From an uncultured Gammaproteobacteria bacterium (GTDB lineage Bacteria > Pseudomonadota > Gammaproteobacteria > UBA4575), in assembly GCA_937922735.1 (NCBI GenBank), contig CALAJL010000025.1:1-45626 (forward strand): DNA of 45,626 bases, given 5' to 3'. How positions within the stretch are numbered: position 1 is the stretch's first letter; each line of letters opens with the position of its first letter. The translations under genes and the position numbers were made by a program. Positions 12,034-19,990 of this stretch are shown here, one piece after another. The notes under the pieces are model-generated. The model ran no database searches. It had not been told where the DNA came from and saw nothing but the letters and a program-made list of their open reading frames with translations.

Positions 12034-12219
12034 ATGACATCACCACAAGAGAAAAAACCACAAAATTCAGCCCTATTACAAGTAAGAATTTCACGTGATT
12101 TACGTGATGAATTCATGCGTATGGTGAAAGATGAGGACGATAGTGCTTCTCGACTAGTAAGACAATGGATTCGGCAATATGTAAAAGCCAGCTCACAGGA
12201 AGATTTATTTAACACGTGA
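12034..12219 (+). CDS. Ribbon-helix-helix DNA-binding protein
   Basis: A 61-residue protein with one ribbon-helix-helix (CopG/Arc-like) fold: strand ALLQVRISRDL (about 14-24), helix RDEFMRMVKDED, turn, then helix ASRLVRQWIRQYVKA. Such proteins dimerise and insert the beta ribbon into the DNA major groove, usually as repressors. Its TGA stop (12217-12219) overlaps the GTG start of the downstream GGDEF-EAL gene (12216), so the two are translationally coupled. A toxin-antitoxin role is unlikely because the partner is a large signalling enzyme. The inference is a transcription factor tied to c-di-GMP turnover; its targets are unknown. Confidence 0.72.
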   Translation: MTSPQEKKPQNSALLQVRISRDLRDEFMRMVKDEDDSASRLVRQWIRQYVKASSQEDLFNT

Positions 12220-14804
12220 TTCGAACAATCGACAAACGCTTTAAAGATAAAGCTAGCGCAAATCATGCGCATGACGTTGTGGATACTAGCCAATACTCAA
12301 GCATGGCAGTTAAAGTATCCTTAGTTAATGTTGGCAAAGATTTGTGGACATACCTATGTCGGCATACACCGCCTCCACTTGCTATTTCAAATTTAGCAAG
12401 TGAACAACAGCTCACTGACATCCAACATGATAGCCACATAGATAGTAAAGCTATTGTACTTGGACACCATATAAAAGAACCATTACAAGTTATCAATTGG
12501 ATCATTGAACATGATTCAACGATAAAAATATTCTTATTACGCAAACCTACAGACTTTGATCTTATGGATCAAACTATTCAAGCTTCACCTTTGCTTGCAA
12601 AAATCGTAGATGTTTGGTCAACCGCAAATATAAAATCATTACCAACTGCCTTAAAAAGCTCTTTAGATGATTTAAATCTAAATAAAGATAATTTAATTGA
12701 ATTTGACAACACGCCATCACCCGAGCCAGAAGTCGTAACAATTAAAACTCAAGATGAGTCAGAACATAAGTTGGATACCATCATGCAGGTCGCTGCTATT
12801 GGTCTACTAAATGTAGACGAAGAAGATACTATTGTTGAGTTAAATAGCACTGCGGCTAAGATGCTTAATTTAGATGAGCATGACTCATTAGGAACACCGC
12901 TGCCATTAATTTTCAAGCAATCTGAAATAATCAAGTTACACCATATTATCAACACATGTCATGATAATTCAGAAGAAATTAATCCTGAAATTAAATTTAT
13001 CGGCTTAGACAATACAATTAAATACTTTAAAGTCTCTGCATATAATGACGAGAATGATCAAACTGTTTTTAGTTTAATTTTACAAGACATCACCACAACC
13101 TCTGTTACGGAAAACAAGCTCGAGCAAGAGCAACAACGCAATCGTATTACATTAAAGTTACTTAAAGATGGTGTGATTGCAACTGACATGAAGTGCCAAG
13201 TTGAAACAATGAACCCAGTTGCCGAAGGTTTAACTGGCTGGCCCAGTTATGAAGCAAAAGAAAAACATGTTGATAATATTCTTAAACTAATCGACGCAAC
13301 CACGAGAGAGCGGGTCACTAATTTGGCTAAAGACAGTTTAGATTCAGGCAAGCCAATAGAGTCAAGAAACAACTTAATTTTATTAGATCGCTTCAATAAT
13401 GAACATCCTATTGAGCTATCTATAACACCTAGCAGCTCACTTGATATAGAAACTGGTGGCTTGGTTTTAATTTTCAAAGATTCATCTGAAACGAATCGAC
13501 TTACACAAAAGATAAGCCATCAAGCATCACATGACTCCTTAACTGGTTTACTTAATAGAAAAGAATTTGAACTGCGTTTAGAGGGCGCTATATCCAGTGC
13601 AGCAACTCATGATGTGCAGCATGTTTTATGTTACCTGGATTTAAATCAATTTAAGATAATAAATGCTCAAGCGGGCCATACTGCTGGCGACATAGTGCTC
13701 AAACAAGCTGCTGATCATATGAAGCAGCATATGCGCAGTATTGATATTTTTGCCCGTCTAGGAGGGGATGAGTTTGCTTTACTACTTGTAAACACTACAG
13801 CAGAACAAGCCAAAACACTGGCACAGAATCTTATTAATACTATCCGTAATTCTACATTTAAATGGCGTGACCAACACTTTGAAATTGGTATTAGTATCGG
13901 GTTAATTACAATAGACAAACATTCACAAGATCCTGCTCATATGCTGACACGAGCAGAACTTGCTTGTTTTACAGCTAAGGATCAAGGACGAAATAAGTTA
14001 CATATTCATAGAAAAGAAGATGATGAATTAACGCGCCGACATACTGAAATGATGCGAGCTGCAGGTGTTACTGGCGCGCTGCAAGAAGATCGATTCAGAA
14101 TCTATTGCCAACCAATAGTAGCCCTCTCTCCTAATAATAAAGAATCATTACACTATGAGTTATTGATTCGATTAACAGACCCTCAAGGCGACTTAATTAT
14201 GCCTGCTAGCTTCATTCCAGCAGCTGAGCGTTACGGATTAATGACTAGTCTGGATCGCTGGATGATTAGTACCGCATTCAATTGTTATAACGATACGTTT
14301 GGCGAACACTCTGGTGTACAAATTGCCATAAACTTATCAGGCAATTCACTCAATGACGATTCACTACTAGATTTTATTAAAGACGAAATCACACGAACAG
14401 GCATTGAGCCAACAAACGTATGCTTTGAGATTACTGAGACAGCAGCAATCAGTAATTTAGACCAAGTCAGTCAATTAATTTTAGAACTCAAACGAATTGG
14501 TTGCCGATTTGCTTTAGACGATTTTGGTAGCGGACTTTCATCTTTCACCTATCTAAAGAATTTACCGGTTGATTATTTAAAAATAGATGGAAGCTTCGTA
14601 CATGACATGATTGATGACTCAATTGATCACGCTATGGTTGAAGCGATCAATCAAGTTGGGCATATCATGGGGATTGGTACTATTGCTGAATGCGCTGAAA
14701 GCGAAGAAGTGGTAAACATGTTGCGCGAACTAGGTGTTGATTATGCGCAAGGTTACGCAATGGGCTCACCTGTTCCTATTGAAGGCTTAAAGCAACCAAG
14801 TTAA
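12216..14804 (+). CDS. PAS-PAS-GGDEF-EAL cyclic-di-GMP signalling protein
   Basis: An 862-residue cytoplasmic protein with no transmembrane helix. Residues about 25-160 look like a degenerate receiver-type alpha/beta domain. Two PAS-like domains follow (about 185-295 and 300-425), then GGDEF (about 435-600) and EAL (about 615-860). The cyclase site GGDEF is intact (about 516-520) with an RSID inhibitory site five residues before it. The phosphodiesterase side has ELL in place of EAL, NLSGNSL, FEITETA, DDFGSG and DYLKIDGSFV, so catalytic acids appear present. It is potentially bifunctional. Start is GTG 12216, overlapping the upstream stop. The next gene begins two bases after its stop. Confidence 0.93.
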   Translation: MIRTIDKRFKDKASANHAHDVVDTSQYSSMAVKVSLVNVGKDLWTYLCRHTPPPLAISNLASEQQLTDIQHDSHIDSKAIVLGHHIKEPLQVINWIIEHDSTIKIFLLRKPTDFDLMDQTIQASPLLAKIVDVWSTANIKSLPTALKSSLDDLNLNKDNLIEFDNTPSPEPEVVTIKTQDESEHKLDTIMQVAAIGLLNVDEEDTIVELNSTAAKMLNLDEHDSLGTPLPLIFKQSEIIKLHHIINTCHDNSEEINPEIKFIGLDNTIKYFKVSAYNDENDQTVFSLILQDITTTSVTENKLEQEQQRNRITLKLLKDGVIATDMKCQVETMNPVAEGLTGWPSYEAKEKHVDNILKLIDATTRERVTNLAKDSLDSGKPIESRNNLILLDRFNNEHPIELSITPSSSLDIETGGLVLIFKDSSETNRLTQKISHQASHDSLTGLLNRKEFELRLEGAISSAATHDVQHVLCYLDLNQFKIINAQAGHTAGDIVLKQAADHMKQHMRSIDIFARLGGDEFALLLVNTTAEQAKTLAQNLINTIRNSTFKWRDQHFEIGISIGLITIDKHSQDPAHMLTRAELACFTAKDQGRNKLHIHRKEDDELTRRHTEMMRAAGVTGALQEDRFRIYCQPIVALSPNNKESLHYELLIRLTDPQGDLIMPASFIPAAERYGLMTSLDRWMISTAFNCYNDTFGEHSGVQIAINLSGNSLNDDSLLDFIKDEITRTGIEPTNVCFEITETAAISNLDQVSQLILELKRIGCRFALDDFGSGLSSFTYLKNLPVDYLKIDGSFVHDMIDDSIDHAMVEAINQVGHIMGIGTIAECAESEEVVNMLRELGVDYAQGYAMGSPVPIEGLKQPS

Positions 14805-14806
14805 CT

Positions 14807-15916
14807 ATGCCAACCATACCTCACATAGAAGAAGAGCTAACTGAAATACAAGCACTGCGCAATAAATTGCAGTCATTAGTACATGATGCCCGTAGAAATG
14901 AGGCAACCTTAAGAAAATTTCAGAACCTAGAATTAAGATTGCTCAGCTGTAGCTCTCTTGCAGAGTTAATGCAACTAGTTGCACATAAAAGCAAATCTAC
15001 GTTTGGTTGGGATGTGTTAACTATTATATTGCATGATGAACACCAAGATATAAAACGATTATTACGTGATGTAGGTGAAGATACGAGTCGCTACCCAGAG
15101 CTAATTTTTACAAATGATATCTTAAAGCTTAAAAAGTTTTATGGTCGTTTCAAAAAACCACTATTAGGTTCTTTTGATATTAATTTGCATGATGATTTGT
15201 TTTTGACAGATCGAAAGTATCCTCGTAGCGTGGCATTATTACCACTATTTCGTAAAAACAAATTACTTGGCAGTCTAAACTTAGGCAGTTTTCAATCAGG
15301 AAGATTTAACAAACAGGATGCCACAGATTTTCTTGAGCATTTAGCTGCAGTATTAGCCACCTGCCTTGACACAACCATGGCACAGGAAAAACTTAAACAA
15401 GCAGGATTAACTGATTCACTAACCGGCGTTAATAATCGCAGATTCTTTGATCAGCGCCTTAATGAAGAGATTTCTCGAGCACAGCGTTTGCAATCATCCG
15501 TAAGTTGCCTGTTTATAGATATCGATCACTTCAAAGTTGTAAACGATAGTTTTGGCCATGAAACCGGTGACAGTGTGTTAACCAAAGTTGCTGAACTAAT
15601 TCGCGCTCAATTAAGAAATATTGATGTTGTGGCACGTTATGGTGGCGAAGAATTTGCAGTGCTTTTAGAACAGTCTGGACAAGATTGGGCGGAAGACGTA
15701 GCGGAAAGGATTCAACAAAGTATTGCAGAAACAACTTTTGTGAAAGGCGAAGACTGTAACCTAACAGTTTCTATCGGAGTTTCCACTATTGAGCAGCCCA
15801 ACACAAATCAAAACACTTTCGATTTGGGTCGCGAGTTACTTCGCCGTGCAGATAAAGCACTTTATCAAGCCAAGCAAGATGGACGAAATAAAGTAGTTCT
15901 TCACAGTACTTTATAA
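14807..15916 (+). CDS. GAF-like/DUF484-like plus GGDEF diguanylate cyclase
   Basis: A 369-residue cytoplasmic protein. Residues about 5-40 are a probable coiled coil. About 45-195 is a GAF/DUF484-like sensor domain with SVALLPLFRKNKLLGSLNLGS. Residues 200-369 are a GGDEF domain with GLTDSLTGVNNRRFFD, FIDIDHFKVVNDSFGH and an intact GGEEF active site preceded by the RNID inhibitory site. It should make c-di-GMP from two GTP. It starts two bases after the upstream stop, so three genes form one operon. Immediately downstream is a c-di-GMP riboswitch, so its product is likely read by neighbouring RNA. Confidence 0.92.
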   Translation: MPTIPHIEEELTEIQALRNKLQSLVHDARRNEATLRKFQNLELRLLSCSSLAELMQLVAHKSKSTFGWDVLTIILHDEHQDIKRLLRDVGEDTSRYPELIFTNDILKLKKFYGRFKKPLLGSFDINLHDDLFLTDRKYPRSVALLPLFRKNKLLGSLNLGSFQSGRFNKQDATDFLEHLAAVLATCLDTTMAQEKLKQAGLTDSLTGVNNRRFFDQRLNEEISRAQRLQSSVSCLFIDIDHFKVVNDSFGHETGDSVLTKVAELIRAQLRNIDVVARYGGEEFAVLLEQSGQDWAEDVAERIQQSIAETTFVKGEDCNLTVSIGVSTIEQPNTNQNTFDLGRELLRRADKALYQAKQDGRNKVVLHSTL

Positions 15917-16375
15917 ATTACTCCAAAGGGTACTTGGCTATAAATCCAGGCTTGTCTTACCGCTTTTATCTAGAGCGCTTCATTACTATTAATATGGAAA
16001 TAAAATTGTATGCGCCTTCTGGCTTAAACCAGATTCAAAATTACAATTACTTTTGAAATTACCCTGCATTTTTCTATATCAATCATTCAACAACACCTTA
16101 ATTAAAAAGCTTAATTTAATTAATGATTCTTGCAAAGTCGCATAGAGAACTAAATACTGAACTCTCTAAATTGTAATAATTTACCTAAAATAGTGTTATC
16201 TAAGATAATGATTAGGTTATGCAGCATTCATAACCATCAGAATAATCGAGAGATTTCATATAAAAAATAATTACAAATAGTTCTTATAACAATAATACTA
16301 ATTAAGAGAACTAATTCACACGAAACCAGGATTTAAAACTCAACTTTAGTACATATCAGCCGATACGTTGAAATG
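15917..16375. other. AT-rich intergenic leader region, no gene seen
   Basis: About 460 very AT-rich bases between the diguanylate cyclase and the riboswitch. No open frame of note and no intrinsic terminator was found. A small hairpin TCTGG/CCAGA lies at 16018-16033 without a T-run. The riboswitch transcript should begin in the last part, but no convincing -35/-10 pair was identified. Confidence 0.5.
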
Positions 16376-16487
16376 TATAAAAAGGCAAATCCAATGAAAA
16401 TTGGAGACGCAAAGTCACCGGTCTAAGGTAATTCTGCAATTATATTTGAAATCATTGCAAAAATTCTATGATAGCGGGACCGCCAGT
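16376..16487 (+). ncRNA. c-di-GMP-I (GEMM-I) riboswitch aptamer
   Basis: Near-consensus GEMM-I aptamer. GGCAAA (16384-16389) is followed by a 6-bp stem TCCAAT/ATTGGA closed by a GAAA tetraloop (16396-16399), then GACGCAAAG (16406-16414), CACCGGTCTAA (16416-16426), and at the 3' side ATAGCGGGACC (16471-16481). This is the same order and spacing as the Vibrio Vc2 aptamer. The second stem carries a long arm with TGCAAT/ATTGCA (16435-16440 / 16454-16459). The G preceding CAAA, which contacts the ligand and separates c-di-GMP from cGAMP sensors, is retained. It lies 85 bases before a secreted-protein gene and directly after two c-di-GMP enzyme genes. Confidence 0.93.
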
Positions 16488-16530
16488 AATTATTAATATA
16501 TTTATCAAGCATAGATTCATGTTTGGCTGA

Positions 16531-16574
16531 GTGGTCCTGTTCATCCGTGTGATTTGTAAACGGATATAATAATG
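16531..16574 (+). promoter_or_regulatory. Putative riboswitch expression platform
   Basis: Bases 16531-16541 can pair with the aptamer 3' strand 16473-16483 in eleven contiguous pairs (three G-U), competing with aptamer folding. Next, ATCCGT (16543-16548) and ACGGAT (16560-16565) form a hairpin holding GGA (16562-16564), the only plausible Shine-Dalgarno before the ATG at 16572. In addition CTGTTC (16537-16542) can pair with GAACAG (16600-16605) inside the gene. No T-run terminator is present, so control is more likely at translation. Direction (on or off) is not decided. Confidence 0.55.
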
Positions 16575-17132
16575 CAACACGACTCAATCAACATAACAAG
16601 AACAGTGAAGTATAAATGCTTATCCAAGCATATACTTTATTGCATCATGGCCGTTCTAGCATACAATCCTGTTTACGCAGCCTCTCAAGGAAAACTTGGC
16701 ATACAATCTACAGCAACCACTGAAATTTCAGTAACAGTACATCAATCCCTAAATGCCATTAGTCCTAATGAAATATTACTAGGTAAGAAAATTGAAAACA
16801 GCTTAACTGCTAGCAAACCATTCTGTATCGCTAACAATGGTTATAAAAAAAATGTGAATGTTCCTTATGAACTTATCGTAGATAGAATTGAATCATCAAA
16901 CACTGGTATAGATAGACTTCCATTCAGCATCTTCTTAGAAGATAAATATACAAAAAAGCGTCTAACCAAAGGAACAAAAATTGTCAAAAGAAGTAACTTA
17001 AAAACAAATCGAAATATATACAATGACTGCATGGATACAGGCGCGAAACTTTCGATCAAAAGTAATCATTCCAAAGATACGCTAAAACCAAATACTGCAG
17101 GGCTTTTACTTCTATTAGTAAGCCCATACTAA
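16572..17132 (+). CDS. Secreted protein of unknown function, under c-di-GMP riboswitch
   Basis: A 186-residue protein with a long basic N-terminus and a hydrophobic segment ending in VYAAS, a probable Sec signal cleaved near residue 36. The mature part starts GKLGIQSTATTEISVTV and continues with NAISPNEILLG and FCIANNG, a beta-rich pattern loosely like small periplasmic or spore-coat-U-like proteins (GxLGxxSxxxxxISVTV followed by an FCI/N-G block). Two cysteines (about 84 and 153) could form a disulfide. The C-terminus is hydrophobic (GLLLLLVSPY). I do not recognise the family with confidence. It is transcribed alone; the next gene converges on it. The riboswitch makes it a direct c-di-GMP output, probably at the cell surface. 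Confidence 0.75.
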   Translation: MQHDSINITRTVKYKCLSKHILYCIMAVLAYNPVYAASQGKLGIQSTATTEISVTVHQSLNAISPNEILLGKKIENSLTASKPFCIANNGYKKNVNVPYELIVDRIESSNTGIDRLPFSIFLEDKYTKKRLTKGTKIVKRSNLKTNRNIYNDCMDTGAKLSIKSNHSKDTLKPNTAGLLLLLVSPY

Positions 17133-17197: not shown

Positions 17198-19990
17198 TCA
17201 TGGACATGAAACAATTGGACCAGAGCTAAAGCCAATAGTGCCAGTATTTATGCCCGTAGAACGACATGCTACTCCACTATTAATAGCACCACCCACTACA
17301 TTACCAATACCTGATACATCAGAACGAATAACTTGGATAGCATCATCACTGCTATCACCATCACCAACATCACGAATAGTTGAATTATTTAATGATGCAG
17401 TACTTAAATTTATTAACACTCCATCTCTTGCTGTGTTATATACAAATAGATCTTGTATCGCCGCATTACTTCGTAATACATAAACACCAAAACGCCCACT
17501 ATTAGTAACGGATGCACTATTTATATTCAAGTCACCTCTGTTTACCAATATTCCATCAAATACAGAATTTGATATTGACGCTCCGTTTATACTGAGAGCA
17601 CCTCGAGTAGTAATTACACCGTAACGCCCTGCATCAGAGATACTAATATTGTTGGCTATAACTGTAGGAGTAAGTACCGCAGTACCATGCACCTGCAAGC
17701 CATCACCTGTCACATTTGAAACATCTACCGAGTTCAGTGTTACATTTGAGTCACGATAGATAAAGATACCATCTCGATTAGCAGAGGCTGAAATATCTGA
17801 AATTGATGCATTACTTATCACCAAATCTGAATCTCTTACATATAAACCTTCTCTTGCAGATCCTCGGATTACAGCATCATTAATCACTGCATCAGAATTT
17901 CTATTAAGATAAATTCCTTGCTGCCCTGCTCCAATTACATCGACACCATCAATAGTGGCTGTTGTATTGGATAGATATGCACCTTGCCTACTTGCATGAT
18001 TAATACTCACATTAATCATATCCAGAGTTGCGTTATTACTATAGAGCCCTTGTCGCCCAGCGCTATTAATTTCAACCTCTTTGAGGCTTGAAGTTGAGTT
18101 GCCTGAAAAATATAGCCCTTGATGACCTGTATTACTAATTTTTGTATTACTAATTATGGAAGTTGTATTATTAGTAGTAATAATTCCCTGGCTAGTTACA
18201 TTATCAATTATAATATTGTCTAAGTTTAAAATTGAATTGTTTGTAGCATATATACCATCACGATTTGCATTAATATCAATATCCTTAATAACCGAATTAC
18301 TTAGATTTAATTCAGAATTATTAACTTCAATAGCTTCGAAGCCAGTTTTACTAATAGTTATACCTTCTACATTCACCGCAGATCCATTTCTAATTCGCAA
18401 TCCTTCTCTACCACTATTATTGATATCTGCATTATTAATAACCGCATTGGATGCAACAATTTCAAATCCTTCGTTAACAGAATTAGAGATAGAAAGACCA
18501 TTAAACATAGATGATGTATTATTTGTTAGGTACACACCTTCTCTTCCTGAGTTATCAATCTTTAAGTTGGTAAATGTGCCTGTAGAATTTGACGTCATCA
18601 GCAGACCTTGCCTGCCTGTATTATTTATTGAAACATCTTCAAAGTTCACAGAAGAGCCATTGTGTATATATGCCCCTTGCCGATTAGACGCTGAATTCAG
18701 TACACGTGTATTAATTACATCAATATTTTGAGAATTATTAATACGAATTGGTCTGCCACCCTCAAGATCAATACCCGCAATAGTCACATCATCATCATTA
18801 TTTACATAAACGAGCTCACCACTACCTGAACGACTAATATTGCCTCGCTGCCCCAAAGGGGTGTAAGACATATCAATCACACTGCCGTTTGGTTTTAGAG
18901 CCTGTAATGTTATTTGCTGACCTCCACCCACAATAATCTGCCCAGGAGACGTGTTAATGGTTAAAGTGCCAACATTAATATCACCTTGACTACCATCTGC
19001 AATAATCAAGCTATTCTGACCTGCCGTGGCAACTTCAGCTGCTACATTTGCAGTTGATGCATTGATTGTTTCAACTACATTAATTACCTGACCTGTCTTA
19101 GGATTAAGCAGTGGCATTACAATGTCGCCTTGGCGCTCATTAGTAATAATGTCATCATCACGCTGAACGGTTTCCATCATTCTTTTTTCTAAAGAAGACA
19201 GCTTCCTTTTACTATTACTGGCGCTCCCACCAAACGGAATTCTAAGTTGTATTAATCCAAAAGATTCACTCCCGCGCACACTGTCTTCTGTATATTCCGC
19301 TCCAAGTGTTAATCGCGAACCTTTTGATATAGACGAGAACAACGGCAAATCATTAAATCGCATCTCTAATCGTAGCTTTGGTCCGCTTACTTTTTCATAT
19401 CCACTTTCATCATAATGATATCCACCAGCAAAGAAGCGCGAGTCCTCCAAGAATGGTAATTTTTTGCCCACCTCAAAATCTACACCAGATAATGCCCGTT
19501 CTTCACCTAACCTTGCTTGTATTTGATTTCCATTTAATTCAATAACGCTAGCGCGATCAGAATCTTTAATTTTATTCTCTGCTATATATGCATTGGCGCG
19601 AATATCCCAGTCATTACTTAGAAACTCACCCCCGAGTGTCATTTGATCAAAGGTATTCCCAGTTGACGATTCTTTCCAATCATAGAACACCCAACTACCC
19701 ACTATCCATTCTTCATATATTTTCCGTGCACCTATTCCTGCATTACCTTCTTTATAACTACGGTCATCAAAATTTACTTTTAGATTTCCAAACAAAAGAG
19801 AGTCCTCGTCTTGTTGAAGAGGAATAAATAGATCACCTTTAGCAATAGAACGATCGCTTCCAGGCTTTGCACTGAATTCAATATAGCTAGTCCACTTATC
19901 TTGGTCTTGAGCGGAAGCAATACCAAGCAGCAGCGTAAAAATCATAGCTGTATATACTACTTTTATGGATCTTTGCCGTAATAACATCAT
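17198..19990 (-). CDS. Inverse autotransporter with a parallel beta-helix passenger
   Basis: A 930-residue outer-membrane protein. A signal peptide (about 1-27) is followed by an intimin/invasin-type inverse-autotransporter barrel (about 30-255) with DLFIPLQQDEDSLLFGNLKV, AGIGARKIYEEWIVGSWVFY, STGNTFDQMTLGGEFLSND and WDIRANAY. A short linker leads to a passenger (about 300-930) built of about twenty repeats of 20-25 residues of the form INNTGRQGLLMTSNST, with hydrophobic and Asn positions typical of right-handed parallel beta-helix rungs. Type Ve passengers are usually Ig-like and C-type-lectin domains, so this is atypical. The end has two Cys. AAGGAAG lies seven bases before the ATG; MM at the start leaves a one-codon ambiguity. 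A surface adhesin or polysaccharide-binding role is inferred. Confidence 0.88.
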   Translation of the reverse strand: MMLLRQRSIKVVYTAMIFTLLLGIASAQDQDKWTSYIEFSAKPGSDRSIAKGDLFIPLQQDEDSLLFGNLKVNFDDRSYKEGNAGIGARKIYEEWIVGSWVFYDWKESSTGNTFDQMTLGGEFLSNDWDIRANAYIAENKIKDSDRASVIELNGNQIQARLGEERALSGVDFEVGKKLPFLEDSRFFAGGYHYDESGYEKVSGPKLRLEMRFNDLPLFSSISKGSRLTLGAEYTEDSVRGSESFGLIQLRIPFGGSASNSKRKLSSLEKRMMETVQRDDDIITNERQGDIVMPLLNPKTGQVINVVETINASTANVAAEVATAGQNSLIIADGSQGDINVGTLTINTSPGQIIVGGGQQITLQALKPNGSVIDMSYTPLGQRGNISRSGSGELVYVNNDDDVTIAGIDLEGGRPIRINNSQNIDVINTRVLNSASNRQGAYIHNGSSVNFEDVSINNTGRQGLLMTSNSTGTFTNLKIDNSGREGVYLTNNTSSMFNGLSISNSVNEGFEIVASNAVINNADINNSGREGLRIRNGSAVNVEGITISKTGFEAIEVNNSELNLSNSVIKDIDINANRDGIYATNNSILNLDNIIIDNVTSQGIITTNNTTSIISNTKISNTGHQGLYFSGNSTSSLKEVEINSAGRQGLYSNNATLDMINVSINHASRQGAYLSNTTATIDGVDVIGAGQQGIYLNRNSDAVINDAVIRGSAREGLYVRDSDLVISNASISDISASANRDGIFIYRDSNVTLNSVDVSNVTGDGLQVHGTAVLTPTVIANNISISDAGRYGVITTRGALSINGASISNSVFDGILVNRGDLNINSASVTNSGRFGVYVLRSNAAIQDLFVYNTARDGVLINLSTASLNNSTIRDVGDGDSSDDAIQVIRSDVSGIGNVVGGAINSGVACRSTGINTGTIGFSSGPIVSCP

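Follow-up and report, generated by a model that had tools for sequence, protein, structure and literature searches.

The bacterium whose DNA is described here probably uses c-di-GMP to control one subunit of a surface fibre. The stretch that was analysed (45,626 nucleotides, referred to below as the window) carries a c-di-GMP-I riboswitch in the 5' leader of a gene for an exported, chaperone-usher (CU) pilin-like protein, and we consider it quite probable that this riboswitch controls the single-gene mRNA and that the protein is a subunit assembled in the class-5-like manner. The riboswitch class is already well known. What is new here is the CU pilin as its target, together with the sigma-28-like promoter box in front of it; in the literature searched, no report of a c-di-GMP riboswitch ahead of a CU pilin was found. 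If true, the arrangement would be a direct connection, made by RNA, between c-di-GMP and a fimbrial subunit, and would suggest that the messenger can set the composition of a pilus, beyond its amount. It fits, and would extend rather than overturn, the established pattern of GEMM riboswitches at genes for adhesion and motility, and an uncharacterised, uncultured gammaproteobacterial group would gain a testable switch. The two central features are the following.

16374-16487 (+): c-di-GMP-I (GEMM-I) riboswitch aptamer, RF01051 at 68.7 bits, with compensatory pairs among four genomes.
16572-17132 (+): orphan CU pilin-like subunit of 186 aa, assigned by profile, genome context and fold.

The riboswitch at this place is real. 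The first-pass annotation of this DNA had described a near-consensus GEMM-I aptamer and proposed a check with the RF01051 covariance model, and the check bears the description out: the match covers the entire model (1-87 of 87) with an E-value of 1.7e-11, its score is well above the gathering threshold of 35, and it is the sole Rfam match of the window. All the motifs named in the annotation were located (GGCAAA, a GAAA-capped 6-bp stem, GACGCAAAG, TCTAA and AGCGGGACC), while its start at 16376 falls 2 nt inside the model match. Features that the annotation had not picked up are a conserved sigma-28-like promoter box, a conserved switching strand and a second, gene-less GEMM-I RNA elsewhere in the genome, all described below. 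An alignment of the aptamers of four genomes, that of the window (G000) and three relatives (G002, G003 and G006), further showed that the GAAA-capped stem varies in a compensatory manner (U-A/C-G, A-U/U-A and U-A/C-G) and that the receptor stem has one such change; pairing fails only at a single A-C pair and a single gap. The covariation, seen in both stems across the four genomes, supports the two-stem architecture of the RF01051 aptamer. A decayed or chance element without a regulatory role is a very improbable source of such a match, given a score nearly twice the gathering threshold, the compensatory changes and the same gene downstream in two genera.

Orthologues of the pilin gene were found in three of 93 related genomes: G002 (54%), G003 (42%) and G006 (42%), the last belonging to a second genus. 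A GEMM-I match precedes the orthologue in each of them, and these 3 of the 93 relatives also keep the whole set: promoter-like box, aptamer, switching strand and pilin. The co-occurrence of orthologue and aptamer and the compensatory changes go far beyond chance, which shows that riboswitch and gene have been kept together. G001 stands outside this count, its contig ending just past the GGDEF gene and the adjacent small gene. A wider scan of contigs added just two loci, and both are the G003 and G006 records.

The target was first described as a monocistronic secreted protein of an unrecognised family, possibly a new envelope factor. The first part of this description is right: the protein has a signal peptide (approximately residues 1-36), and its gene is monocistronic, with the next gene (17198-19990) convergent to it. 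The second part has given way to a more specific assignment. It is true that the 186-aa protein matched no Pfam or NCBIfam family and that a PDB sequence search gave chance hits only. A homology search with the protein, which contains two conserved cysteines (C85 and C153), returned weak matches to paired secreted proteins of the same genomes, located beside usher and chaperone genes. When a profile of the four orthologues was compared with that of CU subunits (hhalign), the match had a probability of 96.8% and an E-value of 2.2e-10; in the reverse search, a profile made from CU-operon subunits only recovered the window protein with an E-value of 7.3e-10. Many of the matches of this CU-subunit profile in other families also adjoin chaperone or usher genes. 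The sequence identity between the protein and CU subunits is only about 20%. The convergent gene (17198-19990, -) encodes an inverse autotransporter of the intimin/invasin type (IAT_beta) whose passenger is a right-handed beta-helix; a longer relative lies near the pilin gene in G002 (L042 9142-12327) and is absent there in G003.

A structure model of the mature protein built with 22 sequences reached a pLDDT of 80.8 and a pTM of 0.71, superseding an earlier model from 12 sequences that was too weak for use (pLDDT 54.6). The first 20 residues or so of the model are placed outside the domain, and the predicted fold is that of an incomplete-Ig pilin with an N-terminal donor strand. The best match in a structure comparison (VIA) was the pilin domain of CfaE (Z 8.1, rmsd 3.4, 117 residues), followed mainly by FimG (Z 7.1), FimH, FimF, FimA, CfaB (Z 6.4) and CsuA/B. 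Foldseek agrees on the pilin fold with weak E-values, the best being 3e-3. For a predicted model, a Z near 8 could by itself reflect a common arrangement; it is the combination of fold, sequence and context that makes the CU pilin assignment firm, and the target is a divergent, orphan member of this family.

There are no chaperone or usher genes in the window, so the pilin gene is an orphan. The same genome does hold a CU operon, on another contig (C77; L047 969-5972), which by its encoded proteins is class-5-like: the usher, of 820 aa, has TcfC and CooC_C domains, and the chaperone is similar to TcfA and, among solved structures, to CfaA. The same operon arrangement is also present in G001, G003 and G005, and its three subunits in L047 match no Pfam or NCBIfam family. 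Membership of the fold family does not require a place in such an operon, but the orphan position weakens the case for incorporation of the window subunit into that pilus. This position would also suit a working riboswitch whose subunit stays outside any pilus, as an Ig-like protein, periplasmic or secreted, of CU-pilin descent and with a newly acquired role, and so would the strong divergence of the sequence and the usual C-terminal pattern GxYxGxLTLxV, which is kept only in part. We nevertheless find such a role unlikely, since the signal peptide, an AASQGxxG N-terminal stretch, the cysteine pair and the last strand are all kept, the predicted fold is that of a pilin, and the same genome, like G001 and G003, has a CU operon with the capacity to handle subunits of this kind. 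We prefer assembly into a pilus. After export the subunit would fold as an incomplete Ig-like pilin with an N-terminal donor strand. The chaperone and usher most likely to assemble it are the class-5-like (CFA/I, TcfC) ones that the genome encodes at another locus, and within the fibre it would serve as a tip, minor or terminating subunit whose dose is set by c-di-GMP.

Several known systems share some of these elements. The genome resembles those with class 5 or alpha CU fimbriae (CFA/I, CS1, Tcf) in its TcfC/CooC_C usher, its CfaA-like chaperone and a pilin fold closest to CfaE; unlike the subunits of those fimbriae, the window subunit belongs to a family absent from Pfam, is encoded alone and lies under a riboswitch. 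GEMM-I aptamers are found before adhesion genes in V. cholerae (Vc1/gbpA) and B. thuringiensis (Bc2/cap) (PMC6366702, PMC4933901). These are alike to the window in having the same aptamer class on a surface adhesion gene, but the target here is a CU pilin subunit. Bc2 acts by termination, which is not seen in the leader of the window, whereas the V. cholerae class I riboswitches work without termination, and apparently so does the one in the window. In C. difficile, the riboswitch Cdi-2-4 controls the type IV pilin gene pilA1 (PMC6366702). This is again a c-di-GMP riboswitch on a pilin gene; it differs in the aptamer, which is of class II, in the type of pilin and in its use of transcription termination.

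How the aptamer could act on the pilin gene is suggested by three elements of the leader.

16473-16486 (+): aptamer 3' strand AGCGGGACCGCCAG, also one side of a competing helix (duplex z -4.5 against shuffles).
16527-16541 (+): expression-platform strand CTGAGTGGTCCTGTT, able to pair with the aptamer 3' strand, its core GTGGTC invariant in four genomes.
16543-16565 (+): small hairpin ATCCGT/ACGGAT over a weak Shine-Dalgarno-like CGGAT, from sequence and folding.

A search of the leader for an intrinsic terminator found no terminator-like site between the aptamer and the pilin gene. Intrinsic termination is thus not supported as the mode of control, and the riboswitch probably acts at the level of translation. 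Compared with 500 shuffles, the duplex of CTGAGTGGTCCTGTT and AGCGGGACCGCCAG had a z of -4.5 in G000, -4.4 in G002 and a moderate -2.5 in G003; in G006, with a z of 0.5, it was no better than chance. A 7-bp core is possible in nearly all four genomes, with a G-U to A-U change occurring once opposite GTGGTC. The small hairpin is not constant between species. Pairing of the two strands would take away the aptamer strand required for ligand binding. With c-di-GMP bound, the aptamer 3' strand AGCGGGACCGCC would be held within the aptamer; without c-di-GMP, it would be free to pair with the downstream CUGAGUGGUCCUGUU, and this pairing would alter the structure ahead of the start codon and, with it, translation. 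When the aptamer was forced in folding, the unpaired fraction of the start codon rose from 0.39 to 0.61 in G000 and from 0.45 to 0.76 in G002, and was hardly altered in G003 and G006. Given this inconsistency among the four genomes, no direction of switching is claimed here. We have a weak preference for ON with c-di-GMP, in which the general role of this messenger in promoting adhesion was also counted.

The leader has one more conserved element, lying immediately upstream of the aptamer.

16340-16366 (+): sigma-28 (FliA)-like box TCAACTTT-N11-GCCGATAC, 7 nt 5' of the aptamer, with 2 mismatches to TCAAGTTT-N11-GCCGATAA.

In all four genomes the box stands at the same place and its spacing is 11 nt; the pattern directly 5' of the aptamer reads TCAA(C/T)TT(T/A)-N11-GCCG(A/T)TA. 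This exact pattern occurs seven times in about 12 Mb (five genomes); four of the seven occurrences are these leaders, from which the pattern was itself partly drawn. The sigma-28 consensus of E. coli is TAAAGTTT-N11-GCCGATAA (PMC2859248). Against this consensus the spacing fits, the -10 element fits at 7 of 8 positions, and the -35 element TCAACTTT deviates. In front of flagellin genes in this genus the sequence is TAAAG...-N11-GCCGATAA, so the box differs from the genus's own flagellin promoter in having TCAAC in place of TAAAG at -35. FliA and flagellin are encoded in G000-G003, while G006 has the promoter-like box although no FliA above the cut-off and no flagellin were found in it. A sigma-28 promoter upstream of the aptamer is plausible on this evidence, and it would start the transcript just 5' of the aptamer. 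One could imagine, as a speculative extension that we hold to be possible but doubtful, a gate with two inputs: FliA would make the pilin mRNA in motile cells, the rise of c-di-GMP upon surface contact would let the riboswitch release its translation, and the orphan subunit would be swapped into a pre-existing class-5-like pilus at the change from swimming to sticking.

Two enzymes of c-di-GMP metabolism are encoded directly upstream, on the same strand.

12216-14804 (+): PAS-PAS-GGDEF-EAL protein, from Pfam and motifs.
14807-15916 (+): DUF484/GAF-GGDEF protein, from Pfam and motifs.

Their sites had been called intact, and the catalytic and inhibitory-site motifs are indeed complete: the two GGDEF domains read GGDEF and GGEEF, both have an RxxD I-site, and the EAL domain has ELLIR, NLSG, EITE, DDFG, LKID and AQG. 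The gene order from the enzymes to the riboswitch is kept in G002 and G003, and probably also in G006, where the genes fall on two contigs (C177 breaks off within the GGDEF gene, and C176 begins within the small gene that precedes the leader). With every active-site motif intact and the order conserved, the pair might be taken for a dedicated, private input of the riboswitch, and the first-pass annotation had pointed to maker, possible breaker and reader of the messenger in a single block. The nearness of the intact enzymes stands; the proposed functional meaning is weakened. The genome encodes 20 GGDEF domains, of which the window pair makes up two, c-di-GMP is a diffusible molecule, and the same enzyme pair is found beside mazG in G005 and G007, genomes of sister genera, which have neither a GEMM-I match nor a pilin orthologue. 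Because the pair occurs there without the riboswitch-pilin unit, it appears to be older than the riboswitch gene. The conserved adjacency is no evidence of a private circuit, and we judge a local signalling module of this kind, with enzymes and riboswitch coupled, to be distinctly unlikely. It has also been described that c-di-GMP riboswitches rarely control genes of c-di-GMP metabolism and usually precede motility or adherence genes (PMC6366702), which fits the present case. G001-G003 and G006 carry one gene that the window lacks: placed between the riboswitch and the GGDEF gene (L042 5681-6022 (-); L045 8352-8678 (+)), it encodes a divergent secreted protein of 108-129 aa.

The likely ligand of the aptamer, to judge from its conserved positions, is c-di-GMP. 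The G that separates c-di-GMP from cGAMP sensing, previously reported as retained, is present within GGCAAA in all four aptamers; we take it to be the equivalent of Vc2 G20, by our own alignment to Vc2. Both neighbouring GGDEF domains, the two that were examined, keep the canonical GHxxGD aspartate, at what is presumably, with PleD as the reference, the position relevant to Hypr enzymes. There are indeed cGAMP sensors among the GEMM-I aptamers (PMC8835794), and according to a 2022 study the Cd1 equivalent of Vc2 G20 is a selectivity factor and no hard filter (PMC9262584). Still, with the G kept in every aptamer of the alignment, and an aspartate in both adjacent enzymes where the Hypr (cGAMP) enzymes have a serine (PMC6456294), there is only a slim chance of a promiscuous aptamer or of one for 3',3'-cGAMP, and we retain c-di-GMP as the likely ligand.

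The genome (2.1 Mb, 149 contigs) contains one further match to RF01051, on contig C120.

L001 1430-1594 (-), corresponding to G000 contig C120:40338-40498: second GEMM-I RNA, 85.7 bits, also in L005, L006, L007 and L017.

Relatives of this second RNA were found in G001 (two), G002 and G003 only. About 165 nt of it are conserved in the genus; this stretch ends at CCTTGCTTCC, which is perfectly complementary to the GGAAGCAAGG of the aptamer. In G000, G002 and one of the G001 sites, the gene that follows lies on the other strand, the neighbours vary, and in most genomes there is no ORF behind the aptamer. It looks like a candidate for a standalone, gene-less c-di-GMP RNA, with a pyrimidine-rich linker CTCTCTCTCC that could pair with Shine-Dalgarno sequences. 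In the merRNA of Bdellovibrio bacteriovorus, too, no conserved ORF follows the c-di-GMP riboswitch (PMC3627812); the two RNAs differ in length (about 165 nt against 445), in sequence and in host. Behind an extra copy of the gene-less RNA, on contig C5 of G001 (L041 3055-3639, -), come a 131-aa ORF, which has GAGGAG as its ribosome site, and next a transposase-like ORF. A more distant relative has two GEMM-I aptamers in tandem, 139 nt apart (L009 and L019; G071 contig C36:975-1279).
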